From Abyssibacter profundi (GTDB lineage: Bacteria; Pseudomonadota; Gammaproteobacteria; Nevskiales; OUC007): 64,000 nt of DNA. Every line of letters begins with the position of its first letter. Position 1 is the stretch's first letter. Shown piece after piece: positions 1 to 50,807 of this stretch. The position numbers and the translations under genes were made by a program. The notes beneath the pieces are model-generated. The model was not told the origin of the DNA. It was given only the letters and a program-made list of their open reading frames with translations, and ran no database searches. The DNA is taken from the NCBI RefSeq assembly GCF_003151135.1, contig NZ_QEQK01000004.1, positions 1 to 64,000 of the forward strand, read 5' to 3'.

Positions 1-1
1 T

Positions 2-256
2 GAGATGGACCATGGTGAGATGGACCATGGTGAGATGGACCATGGTGAGATGGACCATGGTGAGATGGACCATGGTGAGATGGACCATGGTGAGATGGAC
101 CATGGTGAGATGGACCATGGTGAGATGGACCATGGCGAGATGGACCATGGCGAGATGGACCATGGCGAGATGGACCATGGCGAGATGGACCATGGCGAGA
201 TGGACCATGGCGAGATGGACCATGGCGAGATGGACCACGGCGAGATGGACCATGGA
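2..256 (+). repeat. 15-bp in-frame tandem repeat (MDHGE units)
   Basis: Sixteen complete 15-bp units, each encoding Met-Asp-His-Gly-Glu, run from 5 to 244, followed by a partial unit (MDHG then Ser) at 245-256. The Glu codon of a preceding unit lies at 2-4, so the array probably extends left of the window. Units 1-8 use GGT for Gly and units 9-16 use GGC; unit 16 also has CAC instead of CAT for His. The block-wise synonymous change suggests expansion of two slightly different units. Length changes would keep the reading frame. Confidence 0.97.
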
Positions 257-496
257 AGTGATGGTTCCGGATCTTGGACACGCGCCGAGGTGCGTAGCCT
301 GCACCGCGGTCAGCGCGCTGTGGTGCTGGCGCATGACATGATCCACTCCATCGGCATGCCACCGATGACCATGGGCTTTTCCGTGGCGCCGGCCGTCAAC
401 CTCGAGCCGATCGAGCAGGGCATGACGGTGCGTATCCAGGTCGACATGCCCTCTGACGGGGTCTACCGGGTCACGGCCATGGAGCCACTGCCATGA
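2..496 (+). CDS. Copper-binding CusF-like domain protein, 5' end outside window
   Basis: The reading frame is open to the left edge, so this is the C-terminal part of a longer protein. It has the MDHGE repeat, a short Ser/Gly linker, and a CusF-type domain at about 300-490. The domain carries the motif H-D-M-I-H-S-I-G-M-P-P-M-T-M, which aligns with CusF ligands His36, Met47 and Met49; the CusF Trp44 position is Met here. Its stop overlaps the cusA start by 4 bp (ATGA). Fusion of a CusF domain to the C-terminus of a CusB periplasmic adaptor is known, so this is probably the tail of CusB; a free-standing periplasmic CusF chaperone is the alternative. The His/Met/Asp-rich repeat would add a flexible metal-binding segment (inference). 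Confidence 0.8.
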   Translation, partial: EMDHGEMDHGEMDHGEMDHGEMDHGEMDHGEMDHGEMDHGEMDHGEMDHGEMDHGEMDHGEMDHGEMDHGEMDHGEMDHGEMDHGSDGSGSWTRAEVRSLHRGQRAVVLAHDMIHSIGMPPMTMGFSVAPAVNLEPIEQGMTVRIQVDMPSDGVYRVTAMEPLP

Positions 497-3400
497 TTGC
501 TGCGCTGATCCGGTGGTCGTTGGCCAATCGTCCACTGGTGCTGCTGGCCACGGCCTTTGTGATCGTCGCCGGTGTCATGGCCGCGCGGGCAACGCCGGTG
601 GATGCGATTCCTGACTTGTCCGACGTCCAGGTCATCATCCGCACGCCCTTTGCAGGTCAGGCGCCGGCCGTGGTCGAGCAGCAGGTCACCTATCCGTTGT
701 CGACCGCCATGCTGGCGGTGCCCCATGCCCGTACGGTCCGGGGTTTTTCCTTTTTTGGGGACTCCTACGTCTACGTCATTTTCGACGATGGCACGGATCC
801 GTACTGGGCCCGATCACGCGTACTGGAGTCCTTGTCTCAGGTTGCGGCTTCGCTGCCGCGTGAGGCCAGGCCGCAGCTCGGACCGGATGCGACCGGGGTG
901 GGTTGGGTCTACGAGTACGTGCTGGTCGACCGCAGCGGGCAGCATGATCTGGCCCAACTGACCAGCCTGCAGAACTGGTTTCTGAAGTTCGAACTGCAAA
1001 CCGTCGAAGGGGTGGCCGAGGTCGCCACCGTCGGCGGCATGGTGCGTCAGTATCAGGTCATCGTCGATCCCGTTCGGCTACAGGCGCACAGCCTGCCATT
1101 GTCCAGGGTGCAGCAGGCCATCGAGTCGGCCAACCAGGAAACCGGTGGTGCCGTGATCGAGATGGCCGAAGCCGAGTACATGGTTCGGGCAACCGGCTAT
1201 CTGGACTCGGTTGATGACCTGCGCGCCGTGCCGCTGCGCACGGCAGACGATGGTGTTGTCGTGCGGCTGGAAGATGTGGCGCAGATCCAGCTGGGCCCGC
1301 AGCTACGCCGTGGGGTCGCCGAGTTCAACGGTCAGGGCGAAGTGGTCGGTGGCATCATCGTGATGCGCCAGGGGGGCAACGCCCAGGCCACCATCGCCGC
1401 GGTCAAAAAGCGCTTGGACCAGTTGCAGGGAAGCCTGCCGGCGGGCGTTGAGGTCGTGCCGGTGTACGACCGCTCGGCCTTGATCGGGCGGGCCATCGAG
1501 ACATTGCAGCGCACCTTATTGGAGGAGCTGGCGATCGTGGCGGTCATCTGCCTGGTGTTCCTGTTCCATCTGCGCTCCGCACTGGTGGCGGTGATCAGCC
1601 TGCCGATCGGGCTTCTCGTCGCCATGCTGATCATGCGCGGGCAGGGGCTTAACGCCAACATCATGTCGCTGGGCGGCATGGCCATTGCCATCGGCGCCAT
1701 GGTCGATGGCGCCATCGTCATGATCGAAAATCTGCACCATCACCTCGCGGCCAAAGATGATCGGCGGCACTGGCAACGGGTGGCCGACGCCGCGCAGGAG
1801 GTCGGTCCGGCGCTGTTCTTCTCGCTGGCCATCATCACGCTGTCGTTCTTACCGGTGTTGACGCTGGAGGCGCAGGAAGGCCGGCTGTTCGCACCGCTGG
1901 CCTATACCAAAACCTGGGCCATGGCTGCGGCCGCCGGGCTGGCCGTGACGCTGGTTCCTGTGCTGATGGGCTACGTCGTGCGCGGGTCGGTGCGGCCCGA
2001 GCAGGACAATCCGCTCAGCCGTGTTCTGGCGGCACTGTACCGGCCGCTGATTGCATGGGTGACCCGTCATCCCTGGGTTGCGGTCCTGCTGTCGGCGGCC
2101 TTGGCGTTGACTGCCATCTGGCCGGCGGCACAGCTCGGCAGCGAGTTCATGCCACCGCTGGACGAGGGCGACTGGATGTACATGCCGACCACCCGGCCGG
2201 GTCTGTCCATCGGCAAGGCGCGGGAGCTGTTGCAACAAACCGACAAGCTGATTAAATCCGTGCCCGAGGTCGACACGGTGTTCGGCAAGATCGGGCGTGC
2301 CGAAACGGCCACGGACCCGGCGCCGCTGACCATGATCGAGACCACGATCACCTTCAAGCCGGAAAGCGAGTGGCGACCCGGCATGACGCTGGAGGCGATC
2401 CGCGACGAAATCCGCCAACGCGTGAATCTTCCGGGGGTGACCAATGCCTGGGTCATGCCGATCAAGACCCGCATTGACATGTTGGCCACGGGCATCAAGA
2501 CCCCGGTGGGGATTAAGATCAGCGGTGCGGATCTGGGCACCATCCAGGCGATTGGGCGGGAGCTGGAGACCTTGCTGGGGGAGGTGCCCGGCACCTTGAG
2601 CGTCTATGCCGAGCGGGTTGCAGGGGGGCGCTACATCACCATTGATATCGACCGTCGGGCGGCGGGGCGACTGGGTCTCAACATCGCGGATGTGCAGGCC
2701 GTTGTCCGCACGGCTGTTGGGGGGATGGCCGTGACCGAGACGGTTGAGGGCCTGGAGCGGTATCCCGTGAGCCTCCGGTATCCGCAGCACTGGCGCGAGT
2801 CACCGGAGGCCTTGAGCAGGCTGCCCATCGTGACCGCAGCAGGCAGGCAGGTTCAGTTGGGCGATGTGGCCGACATCCGGGTCGAGGAGGGTGCGGCGGT
2901 GATCAAAAGTGAAAACGCCCGCCGCGCGGGCTGGGTCTACATCGATCTGGACCAACGGGACATCGGTTCCTATGTGGCGGAGGCGCAGCGGCGAATTGCC
3001 GAATCGCTGGATCTGCCTGCCGGTTATTCCCTGCAGTGGTCGGGTCAGTACGAATATATGGAGCGCGCCAAGCAGCGCCTGCAATGGGTTGTTCCGGCCA
3101 CGCTCGCGGTGATCGCCTTGCTGCTGTATCTGGCGTTTCGCTCGGTCACCCAGGCGCTGATCATTCTGGTGACCGTCCCGCTGGCCTTGTCGGGCAGCGT
3201 CTGGATGCTGTACTGGCTGAATTACGACCTGTCCGTGGCGGTGGCGGTGGGCCTGATCGCGCTTGCCGGGGTTGCGGTGGAAATTGGCGTGGTGATGTTG
3301 ACCTACCTGAATCAGGCACGTGCTGCGCATCGGGCTTCGGGCGAGCGCGGACCGCGGGCCCTGGTCGCAGCGGTTCGCGACGGTGCGCAGCGACGCCTGC

Positions 3401-3597
3401 GGCCGGTGGTCATGACCGCAACCGCCACCATTGCCGGGCTGATCCCGATCATGCTCAGTGACGGCACCGGCTCCGAAGTCATGCGCCGAATTGCCGCGCC
3501 TATGGTGGGTGGGCTGGTCAGTACCCTGGTGCTGGCGCTGGTGGTGCTGCCGGCCGTGTATGTCCTGGTGTATCGCAGAGAATCGAGAGGCGGATGA
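493..3597 (+). CDS. cusA: Heavy-metal RND efflux pump, CusA type
   Basis: The protein has 1034 residues, the usual length for heavy-metal RND inner-membrane pumps that export Cu(I)/Ag(I) from periplasm and cytoplasm through a CusCBA-type tripartite complex using proton motive force. The N-terminal helix (residues 1-30), the TM4 motif with Asp and Glu (GAMVDGAIVMIEN) and the hallmark MPPLDEGDW segment are present. Three Met residues at 564, 614 and 663, in YMPTTRPG, DPAPLTMIE and RIDMLATGIK, match the position and spacing of the copper-binding Met triad of E. coli CusA (573, 623, 672), which favours Cu/Ag over Zn/Co/Cd. The start overlaps the previous stop and the stop overlaps the next start, so the three genes are translationally coupled. 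Confidence 0.95.
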   Translation: MIAALIRWSLANRPLVLLATAFVIVAGVMAARATPVDAIPDLSDVQVIIRTPFAGQAPAVVEQQVTYPLSTAMLAVPHARTVRGFSFFGDSYVYVIFDDGTDPYWARSRVLESLSQVAASLPREARPQLGPDATGVGWVYEYVLVDRSGQHDLAQLTSLQNWFLKFELQTVEGVAEVATVGGMVRQYQVIVDPVRLQAHSLPLSRVQQAIESANQETGGAVIEMAEAEYMVRATGYLDSVDDLRAVPLRTADDGVVVRLEDVAQIQLGPQLRRGVAEFNGQGEVVGGIIVMRQGGNAQATIAAVKKRLDQLQGSLPAGVEVVPVYDRSALIGRAIETLQRTLLEELAIVAVICLVFLFHLRSALVAVISLPIGLLVAMLIMRGQGLNANIMSLGGMAIAIGAMVDGAIVMIENLHHHLAAKDDRRHWQRVADAAQEVGPALFFSLAIITLSFLPVLTLEAQEGRLFAPLAYTKTWAMAAAAGLAVTLVPVLMGYVVRGSVRPEQDNPLSRVLAALYRPLIAWVTRHPWVAVLLSAALALTAIWPAAQLGSEFMPPLDEGDWMYMPTTRPGLSIGKARELLQQTDKLIKSVPEVDTVFGKIGRAETATDPAPLTMIETTITFKPESEWRPGMTLEAIRDEIRQRVNLPGVTNAWVMPIKTRIDMLATGIKTPVGIKISGADLGTIQAIGRELETLLGEVPGTLSVYAERVAGGRYITIDIDRRAAGRLGLNIADVQAVVRTAVGGMAVTETVEGLERYPVSLRYPQHWRESPEALSRLPIVTAAGRQVQLGDVADIRVEEGAAVIKSENARRAGWVYIDLDQRDIGSYVAEAQRRIAESLDLPAGYSLQWSGQYEYMERAKQRLQWVVPATLAVIALLLYLAFRSVTQALIILVTVPLALSGSVWMLYWLNYDLSVAVAVGLIALAGVAVEIGVVMLTYLNQARAAHRASGERGPRALVAAVRDGAQRRLRPVVMTATATIAGLIPIMLSDGTGSEVMRRIAAPMVGGLVSTLVLALVVLPAVYVLVYRRESRGG

Positions 3598-4340
3598 ATC
3601 GAACCCGAATAACGCGCTGGACCCGAAAATTGCATCGCGGGTTGGGGCTGTTGGTCGCGATCCAGGTCGTCCTCTGGATCGCCGGCGGCCTGATCATGGC
3701 CAGCCTTGACCTGCAGCGGGTTCGCGGTCTGCATTACGCCGCCGAGCAGCCGGTGGAGTCGCTGGAGCTCAAGGCGGTCACCGTCTCTCCGGCCCAGGTG
3801 CTTGAGGGGCTGGATCTGGGGGCGTCAGCGGTCGCGGAACTCAGACTGGTGCAGTGGCAGGGTCAACCCGTTTACCGCGTGCGGCCGCTTGCAGACACCG
3901 CCCGACCGCAGTTGGTCTCGGCGCATGATGGAGTCCGTTTGTCACCGCTGGATGAACCGACTGCACGGCGTATTGCCCAGGCCGATTACGCCGGCCCCGG
4001 GCGACTCGTCGATGCCCAATGGCTCGAAACCGTACCGTCGGAGGCCCGTGGCCGCCGGGGCCCGCTCTGGCGCATCCAGTTTGATGACGCCATCGACACC
4101 GCGCTCTATGTGTCGGCCGACACGGGGCAGGTTGTGGCGCGAAGAAACAACTGGTGGCGCCTGTTCGATGTCGTGTGGATGCTGCACATCATGGACTACG
4201 ACACGCGCGATGATTTCAATCACCCCGTGCTGGTTCTAGCCGCTGCCAGCGCCTTGCTGTTTGCCCTGAGCGGCGTACTGCTGCTGGGGCTCGCCTGGTG
4301 GCCACGTGGGTCACGCCCAGCGGCGGGCACAGGCCGCTAG
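3594..4340 (+). CDS. PepSY-domain membrane protein
   Basis: A 248-residue protein overlapping the cusA stop by 4 bp. There is one TM segment near residues 16-37, a periplasmic region with PepSY-like segments (for example around residues 85-180), and a second TM segment near 212-238. PepSY/PepSY-TM proteins often accompany metal uptake or efflux genes; some are thought to act in reduction or handling of metals, but the role is not settled. The coupling to cusA points to copper handling (inference). No catalytic motif is visible. Confidence 0.75.
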   Translation: MNRTRITRWTRKLHRGLGLLVAIQVVLWIAGGLIMASLDLQRVRGLHYAAEQPVESLELKAVTVSPAQVLEGLDLGASAVAELRLVQWQGQPVYRVRPLADTARPQLVSAHDGVRLSPLDEPTARRIAQADYAGPGRLVDAQWLETVPSEARGRRGPLWRIQFDDAIDTALYVSADTGQVVARRNNWWRLFDVVWMLHIMDYDTRDDFNHPVLVLAAASALLFALSGVLLLGLAWWPRGSRPAAGTGR

Positions 4341-45156: not shown

Positions 45157-48024
45157 ATGATCGATTGGACCCGTTTACTCACCGCGCTTTGCGTTAGCGC
45201 TTCCCTGGCCGCCTGTTCCGGCACCGAGAGCCTCAGCCCTGATGACGGCGATTCTCCGGTCGGGGATGGCCAACCTCCAGTCACCGAAGCGCCGGGGATC
45301 GGCACGACCCAGCTCTTCAATGTGGAGGGCAGCATGGAGGGCTACACGCCCCCTTCCACCAAGTCGCATGGCGAGGGGCCCAGCCTGGAGTTCGTGGCGA
45401 ATCTGCCGGCAGCCGAGCCGGGGTATCTCTATATCGACGCCGCGCTTTACTGGGACGATATCGAGGATTCACTGAGCCTGGAGGTCTTCGGCCCGGATGG
45501 CGCTGTCGTCGCCGAGGCGCTGGCCGAACCCGCGATTGATCAGACCATCCGTGTGGAAACCCCTGTCGAGGGTGCCTACCGCTTCGTCATCCATGAGCGC
45601 GAGACACGACCGGGCGAGCGTTTCAAGTTCGTCGCCTTTGTGACACGGGGAGAGGACGCCGGGGATGTGGTTGCAAACCTTTGCATGCAGGAAGGCGAAG
45701 AACAGGTAATCGCCGAATGGACGGGGACTGCGCCGAGTTCCGTGGGGGGCGTTCCGGGTACGACGGTTGATGAGGTGCTACCCATACCTGATGGCTGCGC
45801 CTACGACGAGTTGCAAGTGGATATCGCCTGGGATGTCGCCGCAGAAGATCTGGATCTGGACGTGCTGGACCCGAACGGAAGCGTCGTCGCCAGCTCCGGA
45901 AACCTGAATGCCGAGACCGGGGTGGCCGCAGAATCCGCCACGGCTGTGGCTCCACGCGCCGGTGACTATGTCGCGTCCACCAAGAGCTACAGCAACTTCG
46001 AGACGCCGTTTTCCGGTGTCGCAACCCTGCGCTGCGTCACGGTTGGTGGTTGCTACGAGTTGGTCGACGACACGGTCACCGAGTACCCGGTGCCGGTCCA
46101 GTCGACGCGAGTCATCGTGGGCGTGATGGACAGTGCGACCAACCCCTACCACGACTTCTTCTACGCCGGCAGCGAAATCTATCCGGAGCATGCGCCGACC
46201 GCTGTGACGCCCGCCGTCCTGGCCGAGCTTGGGGTCGAGCCGGAGAACCAGATCGAGTTGACGCGGACCGGTGACATCGCTGCCGACATCGAGGCCGACG
46301 CCGCCATCTGGTCGCGGGTGAAGCGTGGGGAGTTGGTCTGGTTCAAGGGCACAAACCTGCTGGCCATTTCCTTTGCCGGTACGGATGTCGAACCCCTGGT
46401 CCCGCAGCCGATCAAGTCATCTCATGGTGTGGGGACCAGTGCAGCCGTACTGAAGGCGAACCCCGAGGCCGTGGTGATCATGGTGGAGCAGGGCAACGAC
46501 ATCGGCAACGACCCCAGTCATGAATGGACCTTCCTGAATCCTTCGATTGATATCGTGTCGACCAGCTACGGCGTTTCGCTGGCCCTGGGCCTTTTGCCGG
46601 TGCCGGAGACGCGTGCTTTCCATGCCGGTTTTGACGGTGTGGTGGGGCAGGGCAAGCTGCATTTCAGCTCATCCGGTAACGGACCGGGTTTGTCACCCGC
46701 ACGTGCAGGTGCCGGGCCTTGGTGGTCCATCGGCGTGTCGGGCAGCGAGGAGGACTCCTCCGAGGGCCGGACCATCACATCGGGTCGGTTGCCCGATTTC
46801 GTGTCGGACTTCGTGCAGCAGCTGCCGTATTGCATGGACTGTCAGTCGGAGATCGACACATCGGTGGGTGGGACCAGTTTTTCGACGCCGCGCGCGGCTG
46901 GTGTGGCCTCACGCGTCCTGCTCGAGGTGCGTCGTAAGTATGGCCATCGTGGCGGAGTGATTGATGTGGATGGCGTCCCGACCATGGCAGTCGGCGGCGA
47001 GATTCCACTCACCAACTGGGTGCTGCGCCGAGCACTGGAGGAGGCCGCCTGGGTACCGGGTACGCTGGGCGACCCCATCGAGATTGCGCTGGACCTGGCG
47101 ACGCCGGTGATTCCCCAGCTGGCCTGGTTGGATTATGGCTGGGGTGATCTGTCCGCCCGCAGCGACAAACTGGTGGTTGAAGCTGCACTGACGCACCTGA
47201 GTCTGGGCGCATTGCCGCGGACCAAGCCTGTCGGTTTCTGCGAGTTCCAGACCGAGATCATGCTCGAGCGTATGACCTACTGGAACGAGATCGCCCCCTC
47301 GCTGCCCGACGTGTTTGGTGGCGACAGTGCGCAGCCGCTAGACAGCAATCCGTTCATCTTCTGTGACTCGGGCTTGCCACATCATCCGGCCAGCAATGAT
47401 CCGGGTGGCAACTATGACCCGGCCGCTGATTTCGACGGCGACGGCGTGGCCAACGGCGACGACAATTGCCCTGAAGACCCCAATGCGGATCAGGCGGATG
47501 AAGACGGCAATGGCGTGGGCGATGCCTGCGATGCCCCGCCCAGCGATATCGATGGCGATGGTGTGGTCGACAGCGAGGATAACTGTCCGAATGCGGCCAA
47601 CCCGGAGCAGACGGATACCGGTGATGACGGTGTCGGCGATGCCTGTGAGTCTGCTCCGGAGACCCCGATCGCCGAGCCGGGTCCCGGCACGGTCGAGGTG
47701 GTCAGCTATGACGGACCCACCGGGATCACGACTCCCGTGGTCTGCCTGGGGTGCGGCAGTGGCTCGGATGGCTTTGCCACGCACGAAGTTCGTTACGAGT
47801 TACCTGCGCTGGCCGCGTTGACCAGCTTGGACTTCACGCTGACCGCCGCGCCTGCTGAGCAACTGGATATGGTGATTTATAACCCGGCCGGAGAAGAAGT
47901 GACGGCGCCGGTGACCGACCCGATGCCGGGGTTGTACCTGGCGCAGATCACCGAGCTTGTCGCCTTTGAAGGGGGCTTTAACCTCAGCATCTCAACAACC
48001 TGTCCGGACACCGGCTGCAATTAA
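45157..48024 (+). CDS. Subtilisin-like (S8) peptidase lipoprotein with type-3 repeats
   Basis: 955 residues. Lipoprotein signal ending LAAC with Ser at +2. The catalytic triad is visible: Asp 325 (GVMDSATN), His 423 (SSHGVGT) and Ser 574 (GTSFSTP). The first 315 residues look like beta-rich carbohydrate-binding or pre-peptidase C-terminal-like modules. Residues about 750-840 hold thrombospondin type-3 repeats (DGDGVANGDDNCPEDPN, DGDGVVDSEDNCPN), which bind calcium, and a further beta module follows. A surface or secreted protease. The spacing Asp-His of about 98 residues is longer than in simple subtilisins. Confidence 0.88.
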   Translation: MIDWTRLLTALCVSASLAACSGTESLSPDDGDSPVGDGQPPVTEAPGIGTTQLFNVEGSMEGYTPPSTKSHGEGPSLEFVANLPAAEPGYLYIDAALYWDDIEDSLSLEVFGPDGAVVAEALAEPAIDQTIRVETPVEGAYRFVIHERETRPGERFKFVAFVTRGEDAGDVVANLCMQEGEEQVIAEWTGTAPSSVGGVPGTTVDEVLPIPDGCAYDELQVDIAWDVAAEDLDLDVLDPNGSVVASSGNLNAETGVAAESATAVAPRAGDYVASTKSYSNFETPFSGVATLRCVTVGGCYELVDDTVTEYPVPVQSTRVIVGVMDSATNPYHDFFYAGSEIYPEHAPTAVTPAVLAELGVEPENQIELTRTGDIAADIEADAAIWSRVKRGELVWFKGTNLLAISFAGTDVEPLVPQPIKSSHGVGTSAAVLKANPEAVVIMVEQGNDIGNDPSHEWTFLNPSIDIVSTSYGVSLALGLLPVPETRAFHAGFDGVVGQGKLHFSSSGNGPGLSPARAGAGPWWSIGVSGSEEDSSEGRTITSGRLPDFVSDFVQQLPYCMDCQSEIDTSVGGTSFSTPRAAGVASRVLLEVRRKYGHRGGVIDVDGVPTMAVGGEIPLTNWVLRRALEEAAWVPGTLGDPIEIALDLATPVIPQLAWLDYGWGDLSARSDKLVVEAALTHLSLGALPRTKPVGFCEFQTEIMLERMTYWNEIAPSLPDVFGGDSAQPLDSNPFIFCDSGLPHHPASNDPGGNYDPAADFDGDGVANGDDNCPEDPNADQADEDGNGVGDACDAPPSDIDGDGVVDSEDNCPNAANPEQTDTGDDGVGDACESAPETPIAEPGPGTVEVVSYDGPTGITTPVVCLGCGSGSDGFATHEVRYELPALAALTSLDFTLTAAPAEQLDMVIYNPAGEEVTAPVTDPMPGLYLAQITELVAFEGGFNLSISTTCPDTGCN

Positions 48025-48233: not shown

Positions 48234-50807
48234 ATGAGCGAGTTCGCAAAAGAAGTCCTGCACGTCAATCTTGAAGACGAGATGAAGCAGTCCTACCTCG
48301 ACTACGCCATGAGCGTGATCGTGGGACGGGCACTGCCGGATGTACGAGATGGCCTCAAGCCCGTACATCGACGCGTCCTCTACGCCATGCGCGAACTCGG
48401 CAACGATTACAACAAGCCTTATAAGAAGTCGGCGCGTGTCGTCGGTGATGTGATTGGTAAATACCACCCGCATGGCGACACCGCCGTGTACGACACGATC
48501 GTGCGCATGGCGCAGCCGTTCTCCATGCGCTACATGCTGGTTGACGGGCAGGGCAACTTCGGATCGGTGGATGGCGACTCGGCCGCTGCCATGCGTTACA
48601 CCGAGGTCCGCATGGCCCGCATTGCACACGAGATGCTGGCGGACATCGACAAGGACACCGTCGACTTCGTCCCCAACTACGACGAGTCCGAGTCCGAGCC
48701 GGCCGTACTGCCGACCAAGATCCCGAACCTCTTGGTCAATGGTTCGGCGGGTATCGCCGTGGGGATGGCGACCAATATCCCGCCGCATAACCTGACCGAA
48801 ATCGTGAATGCCTGTGTGGCGCTCATCGACGATCCGGAGATTACGATCGAGGGCCTGATGGCGCATGTGCCCGCGCCGGATTTCCCCACGGCCGCCCTGA
48901 TCAATGGCACAAGTGGGGTTCGTGAGGCCTACGAAACCGGCCGGGGGCGTGTCTACATGCGTGCCCGCGCCGAGATCGAAGAGCTGCCCAGCGGGCGTCA
49001 GGCCATTATCGTCACCGAGTTGCCCTATCAGGTGAACAAGGCGCGTCTTCTGGAAAAAATTGCCGAGCTGGTCAAGGAAAAGAAGATCGAGGGCATCACG
49101 GAGCTGCGCGACGAGTCCGACAAGGACGGCATGCGCATGGTGATCGAACTGCGGCGCGGCGAAGCCGGTGAGGTCGTCCTCAACAATCTTTATCGTCAGA
49201 CCCAGCTGCAAACCGTGTTCGGCATCAACATGGTCGCACTGGATGGCGGCCAGCCGCGGACGCTTAACCTCAAGCAGGTTCTGGAAGCCTTCGTGCGCCA
49301 TCGTCGTGAGGTCGTGACACGGCGGACCATGTACCTGCTGCGCAAGGCGCGTGACCGCGCCCATGTGTTGGAAGGGCTCACCGTTGCGCTGGCCAATATC
49401 GACGAGGTCATCGAACTGATCAAGGCAGCGGCCTCACCGGCGGAGGCCCGGGCTGCATTGGTCGCACGCCCCTGGGCACCTGGCCAGGTGCGCGACATGC
49501 TGGGTCGCGCCGGTGCCGAGGCATCTCGGCCGTTGGAGCTGGCCGAGGGGCTAGGCCTGACGGACGACGGCTATATGCTGTCCGAAGCCCAGGCGCAGGC
49601 GATTTTGGATTTGCGCCTGCACCGACTCACCGGCCTGGAGCAGGAGAAGCTGGTTGGCGAGTACCGCGAGATTCTCGAGCAGATCGCTGAATATCTCGAA
49701 ATTCTCGGCAGTATCGCCCGTTTGCTGGAGGTCATCCGTGAAGAACTGATCGCCGTTCGGGAAACCTATGGCGATGTCCGCCGGACCGAGATTCTCGAAG
49801 ACTTCATCGGCCTGGATCTCGAAGATCTGATCACCCCGCAGGATGTCGTGGTGACGTTGTCGCACGAGGGTTACGTCAAGAGCCAGCCGCTGGACGTTTT
49901 CCAGGCGCAGAAACGCGGTGGTCGCGGCAAGCTGGCATCCAGCTTCAAGACGGATGACTTTATCGATGCGCTGTGGGTGACCCACACCCATGACACGCTG
50001 TTGTGTTTTTCGTCGGCGGGCAAGGTTTACTGGCTTAAGGTCTATCAGATTCCACAAGGCAGTCGGGGTTCACGCGGCAAGCCCATCGTCAATCTGCTGC
50101 CGCTCGAGGGCGATGAGCGTATTTCGGCCGTGCTACCGATCAAGGATTTCGGCACGGGCGAGTCGGTGTTCTTCGTCACCCGTCAGGGCGTGGTCAAGAA
50201 GACCGAACTGGAGGCATTCTCGCGGCCCCGCGCCAGCGGCATCATCGCGTTGGCGCTGCGGGACGACGATGCCCTGGTCGGCGCGGCACTCACAGATGGC
50301 ACCCGGGACATTTTGCTGGTCGCCGACAACGGCAAAGGTATTCGCTTCCCCGAGGCCAATGTTCGCTCCATGGGACGCACGGCGGCGGGTGTGCGTGGCA
50401 TGAAGCTGGGCAAGGAACAGTCGGTCATCTCGCTGCTGATCTGCCAGGACGGCGACGTGCTCACGATGTCCGAAGCCGGCTTCGGCAAACGCACGCCGGT
50501 GGATGACTATCCACTGCGTGGGCGGGGTGGCCAGGGCGTGTTCGCGCAACGACTCACCGATAAGACCGGCAAGCTGGTCGCCGCGATTCAGGTTGGCGAA
50601 GACGACGAGATCATGCTCATCACCGAGTCAGGCAATCTCAATCGTCAGTCGGTATCAGGCATCTCCCAGCTGAGCCGCAATACGCAGGGCGTCAAACTGA
50701 TTCGTCTGGCACAAGGGGACCGTCTGGTCGGTGTCGACCGGATCGCCACCGAAGCTGAGGACGACGACGATGGTGAGGCGGGCGCCGGGGACGGAGCAGC
50801 CGAGTAG
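48234..50807 (+). CDS. gyrA: DNA gyrase subunit A
   Basis: 857 residues, the usual length. The quinolone-resistance region reads [19 protein letters not shown]: the position of E. coli Ser83 is Thr, as is natural in some genera, and Asp87 is kept as Asp. The catalytic Tyr is in [10 protein letters not shown]. The C-terminal beta-pinwheel has the GyrA box QKRGGRGK. GyrA breaks and rejoins DNA in the GyrA2GyrB2 enzyme that introduces negative supercoils. Confidence 0.98.

Follow-up and report, generated by a model that had tools for sequence, protein, structure and literature searches.

A predicted CusB-type adaptor of Abyssibacter profundi with a long Met/His pentapeptide array between two CusF-like domains

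Introduction

A 15-bp unit, repeated in tandem and translated into a chain of Met, Asp, His, Gly and Glu, precedes a CusF-like domain and a cusA gene in the marine bacterium Abyssibacter profundi. To which protein does this repeat belong, and what could such a chain do there? The stretch of DNA analysed, hereafter the window, has 64,000 nucleotides and corresponds to positions 1-64000 of contig C4. This contig starts with base 1 of the window, thus the window begins inside the array. The first part of the gene has to be looked for on another contig.

The 15-bp array and the contig break

TRF reports, for window positions 1-255, 17.0 copies of a 15-bp period, without indels and with 98% matches. 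From base 2 an open frame of 17 EMDHG units, then a CusF_Ec domain, runs to the stop at 496. Eight units are GAGATGGACCATGGT (GGT end) and seven are GAGATGGACCATGGC (GGC end); the two remaining ones end in CACGGC and CATGGA, respectively. DNA identity among the units is 95.6% and the Asp codon is GAC throughout. A preliminary description of this DNA had noticed at least 16 nearly unchanged copies and two blocks differing by a synonymous base (GGT vs. GGC). Both observations hold, and the near-identical units in homogeneous GGT or GGC blocks agree with its proposal that the array has grown by unit copying. A chance repeat is ruled out by the 98% matches over 17 units and by the total lack of matches for a reversed control pattern. 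Likewise ruled out is any functional open reading frame besides that of CusF, on either strand, homologues being found for the CusF frame only; the long alternative frames are generated by the 15-bp period itself.

The other part of the array lies at the end of contig C20 (L012:1-170, minus strand) and has 11 further units, two of which are MGHGE. In frame, this end reads MDHGE, MGHGE, MGHGE, then pure MDHGE. At both contig ends the terminal 134-135 bp are nothing but repeat, and the two overlap exactly over as much as 128 bp; thus the array broke the assembly and its copy number is fixed as a minimum only. The 11 units of C20 and the 17 units of the window overlap to an uncertain extent and are not additive. 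By aligning the two ends in phase (3 + at least 8 + 9) we infer at least 20 units, which is a minimum.

A degenerate pattern of two consecutive units matches, in the whole genome, the ends of C4 and C20 only (reversed control: 0). That these ends belong to one gene is well supported by sequence comparison, since in the metagenome-assembled genome (MAG) of Abyssibacter sp. SW_4_13 (L018) these genes follow each other in an identical order within a single contig. In L018 an acyl-CoA dehydrogenase gene flanks the locus, as on C20. The preliminary description had mentioned a possible assembly artefact. The array itself is real; its length is not to be trusted, because a short-contig assembly breaks within the repeat. 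In genome G221, an MDHSG array of a short exported protein (L117, minus strand, near 1282-1887) runs into N after 9 units; there, too, the assembly was interrupted by a Met/His array. Here and in L117, one meets a type of copper gene whose length is broken or misreported by short-read assemblies.

The adaptor gene and its operon

Taken together, the C20 and C4 halves are assigned to one CusB-type adaptor, with the following order: membrane anchor, HMBD, CusB body, CusF domain 1, array (20 or more pentapeptides, all MDHGE except for two MGHGE), CusF domain 2. The coordinates are collected in Table 1.

Table 1. Features of the adaptor locus (window positions, or positions in L012 for contig C20).
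Feature	Position	Strand	Basis and remarks
CusB-type adaptor gene, first 550 codons	L012:2-1651, contig C20	-	GTG start
CusF domain 1 (predicted)	L012:174-412	-	CusF_Ec (Pfam), above cut-off
MDHGE array, 3' part	1..256	+	17 units of 15 bp; TRF and unit listing; continues on contig C20
CusB-type adaptor gene, 3' end	2..496	+	164 codons visible; open frame, Pfam, synteny with L018
CusF domain 2 (predicted)	272..487	+	CusF_Ec E 1.3e-16, 60.7 bits (cut-off 27); PDB CusF match; alignment; model
cusA, RND pump	493..3597	+	TIGR00914 1208.7 bits (cut-off 701); start overlaps adaptor stop
PepSY-TM-like membrane protein	3594..4340	+	PF03929 E 1.2e-5, 25.8 bits, below the curated cut-off (28.8)

The C20 half has a hydrophobic segment at its N-terminus and, by Pfam, a heavy-metal-binding HMBD, an HlyD_D23 body (E 4.7e-61) and CusF domain 1, followed by the array. 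The closest solved structure to this half is E. coli CusB (3ne5_B, E 7.3e-52), i.e., the body is a barrel-sandwich related to that of E. coli CusB, as in other adaptors of this type. Two CusF_Ec domains above cut-off on the adaptor further place it among fusions of the SilB type. The preliminary description was right to see an array fused in frame ahead of a CusF-like domain, next to cusA, but it missed the CusB body, the upstream CusF domain 1 and the uncertainty of the array length. Once the full upstream gene is examined, the array is seen to connect two CusF domains of a CusB adaptor. Export of the repeat protein, on which that description also depended, is probable, since the protein is of the CusB type and its N-terminus bears a hydrophobic segment.

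The neighbours of the adaptor gene are an OEP outer-membrane factor gene upstream and a CusA/CzcA gene downstream, in the same order as in L018. The start of the PepSY-TM-like gene overlaps the cusA stop, and this gene is the last visible one of the operon. When aligned with E. coli CusA, the cusA product has retained Met in DEGD..YM, APL.MIETT and RIDML. The three aligned positions in E. coli CusA are those which we take to be the substrate triad. By these Met residues of the substrate site, the pump is predicted to be a Cu(I)/Ag(I)-type CusA rather than a Zn/Co pump. A search of plasmids gave cusA relatives at about 67% identity only, and the array was not found there. Upstream of the outer-membrane factor gene, a small exported-looking protein containing Cys and His is encoded at L012:3016-3468 (minus strand); it has no Pfam or NCBIfam match.

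CusF domains and predicted structure

The putative ligands of CusF domain 2 are encoded at window positions 332-334 (His), 365-367 (Met) and 371-373 (Met), with a further Met (356-358) at the position of the usual Trp. In CusF and SilF this Trp caps the metal and has been described as strictly conserved (PMC10656224). Both CusF domains of the adaptor keep the His and the two Met ligands and both have Met in place of Trp, i.e., the combination of His-Met-Met with a Trp cap is absent. Among the domains surveyed, 84 have Trp and 15 have Met at this position, most of the latter in the Abyssibacter clade. CusF domain 1 taken alone retrieved no PDB chain by single-sequence search, despite its clear Pfam match. 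No CusF domain was found in the genome outside the adaptor gene.

In an AlphaFold2 model of the intact orthologue L018, the array has pLDDT values of 32-41, while those of the two CusF domains are mostly between 78 and 95. By structure comparison, domain 2 of this model fits CusF and SilF (Z about 12), and its body fits CusB (Z 21.3). Since the fold matches but Met replaces Trp, the domains are best classified, by sequence and model, as CusF-fold domains with a variant metal site. When the window's own piece is modelled, its CusF domain reaches 92-97 and the array is without secondary structure. The array is thus predicted to be disordered, in agreement with the flexible chain proposed initially.

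Length of the array among orthologues

The following lengths are compared between species, with one genome per species. Orthologues with two CusF domains have 5-6 units (L018/L014), none (L019/L015) or 9 strongly diverged units (L101), vs. at least 20 here. Unit number thus varies without a break of the frame, as had been anticipated, and between species it is not fixed. The L019/L015 orthologue belongs to the same genus and lacks the array; the array is thus dispensable for the pump. In L020/L104, the two CusF domains are joined by a non-repetitive linker rich in Pro, Ser and Ala. The 9 units of L101 are only 62% identical at the DNA level, and Met and His are kept in 9/9. The Asp codon is GAT in the units of L014 and GAC in those of the window, which suggests a separate homogenisation of each array.

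Met/His arrays in other proteins

Ninety-four distinct CusB-type proteins were surveyed, and a tree was made from 82 adaptor cores. An array between two CusF domains is found, in this survey, only in the clade formed by Abyssibacter and its sister family. Free C-terminal arrays are present in a Wenzhouxiangella MAG (18 MDHGE-type units), in a Lysobacterales MAG (L050, 10 units) and, with fewer units, in Microbulbifer (L065/L080/L081). The CusB-CusF protein of Neiella litorisoli (L052, 4920-6851) has 17 C-terminal copies of the 8-residue MDHSQHKN and represents an independent array with a different unit. When the character «array» is placed on the tree of 82 cores, 9 changes are needed, and at least 7 gains or losses are imposed by branches with good support; a restriction of the array to one clade is ruled out by these changes.

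A pattern of three MDHxx in a row occurs in 5 of 369 genomes of the class and in 4 of 85 of the order. Other proteins matching the pattern, named by inspection of their sequences, are CopB (L114), a cupredoxin-like protein, a PCuAC-like protein and a short exported protein. In the other arrays, conservation of Met and His was counted with one anchor at a time, so that the anchor residue is not self-selected. The Met is present in 66 of 74 units, the His in 70 of 75. The last two positions of the unit drift, their commonest residue accounting for about half or less.

The genome of the window further carries two copA-copB loci (L153 on contig C9, L154 on contig C8), in which CopA has inserts rich in Met and His; the organism thus has several copper systems.

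Possible role of the array

The reading proposed here, to which we would give a probability of roughly 0.6, is that the array may act as a tethered, SilE-like sponge for Cu(I)/Ag(I) and as a flexible relay between the two CusF domains of the pump adaptor. It is suggested by (i) the domain order, (ii) the operon, (iii) the predicted disorder, (iv) the retention of Met and His, (v) the recurrence of such arrays and (vi) the fact that the genome has no other CusF domain. It is also an analogy. SilE has been described as a disordered molecular sponge for Ag(I), and a C-terminal Met/His peptide of Salmonella SilB binds Ag(I) and stays unstructured (PMC8686694). The Cupriavidus SilB has a CusF-like C-terminal domain with a metal-chaperoning function (PMC4446572).

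Each pentapeptide would bring one Met and one His; a disordered chain of about 100 residues would thus carry at least 20 Met and 20 His. Attached to the pump, this chain would form a built-in reservoir, with many Met/His sites of low affinity for Cu(I)/Ag(I), which could collect periplasmic metal and buffer its excess. On this tether, the distal CusF domain could travel back and forth between metal donors and the entry site of CusB/CusA, where the mobile domain would pass on its metal. Slippage by 15 bp or unequal recombination may lengthen or shorten the array while the frame is kept. Metal binding and transfer, the identity of the metal and a possible influence of unit number are what we infer. 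The abundant Asp and Glu of the array could equally bind other cations.

The array could instead be mainly a spacer, i.e., a hydrophilic and flexible tether of which the length, and not the metal content, sets the reach of the distal CusF domain. Its location between two folded domains and its predicted disorder are in favour of this, as are the non-repetitive linkers of other two-CusF orthologues (e.g., L020/L104). Nevertheless, diverged arrays selectively keep Met and His, and similar arrays are present at free C-termini, where no domains have to be bridged; a spacer role is thus rather unlikely.

Less credit still can be given to a neutral and recent product of slippage, i.e., an expansion tolerated in a disordered linker without benefit. 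The array of the window, with its 95.6% identity, is too recent for its own sequence to show a selection on Met and His, so that for this array both the spacer and the neutral reading keep some probability. Its near-identical units, a length that looks unstable and the absence of the array in a same-genus orthologue speak for neutrality. Against it, arrays recur within this protein family and are present in further copper proteins, and old arrays have retained Met and His. Finally, it is highly improbable that the two contig ends come from different genes or that the array length is an assembly artefact: C4 and C20 both stop within pure repeat, so the assembler left the copy number uncertain, but they are the only repeat-bearing sites of the genome, and the single-contig L018 has the array at the same place in the same gene order.

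The sponge and relay reading can be carried further, as a speculation that we hold to be doubtful: the 15-bp array might be a frame-preserving and fast-changing dial, its unit number differing within a species and setting the storage capacity or the reach. If so, tolerance would evolve via the copying of repeats and not via point mutation; if unit number sets metal capacity, tolerance to copper or silver could be tuned by the length of the repeat.

Relation to known systems

The comparison with known systems leads to the following points. (i) Cupriavidus metallidurans CH34 SilB resembles the present adaptor, with a CusB body and then a CusF-like domain in one polypeptide of a Cu(I)/Ag(I) RND operon; one CusF-like domain is described for it (cited in PMC4446572), whereas the Abyssibacter adaptor has two, with a long Met/His array between them and Met at the Trp position. 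(ii) SilE and the C-terminus of Salmonella SilB are likewise disordered, Met/His-rich chains beside the same kind of pump (PMC8686694). SilE, however, is a separate protein without a regular pentapeptide array, and its likeness to the Abyssibacter array is an analogy and not a family membership. (iii) The C-terminal CusB arrays (Wenzhouxiangella L042/L083, Neiella L052, Lysobacterales L050, Microbulbifer L065/L080/L081) have the same component and the same kind of motif, with up to 18 units, but at a free C-terminus and with or without one CusF, whereas the Abyssibacter array is located between two. (iv) Met-rich proteins of the CopA/CopB/PcoA type (the CopA inserts of the organism itself, CopB L114) are exported copper-resistance proteins with MDHx-type motifs; they are different proteins, and their motifs are shorter and irregular.

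Among open-licence papers, the literature search found no MDHGx repeat strings, nothing useful on variable-number CopB repeats or on multi-domain CusB-CusF fusions, and no combination of CusB, two Met-capped CusF domains and a long regular Met/His repeat between them. The parts, i.e., CusB-CusF fusions and Met/His sponges, are already known separately; their combination is a novel variant. A long and regular Met/His repeat joins here two predicted chaperone domains on a pump adaptor, a place where similar arrays arose repeatedly.

Elsewhere in the window, a 955-aa protein with thrombospondin type 3 repeats is encoded at 45157-48024, just upstream of gyrA (48234-50807).
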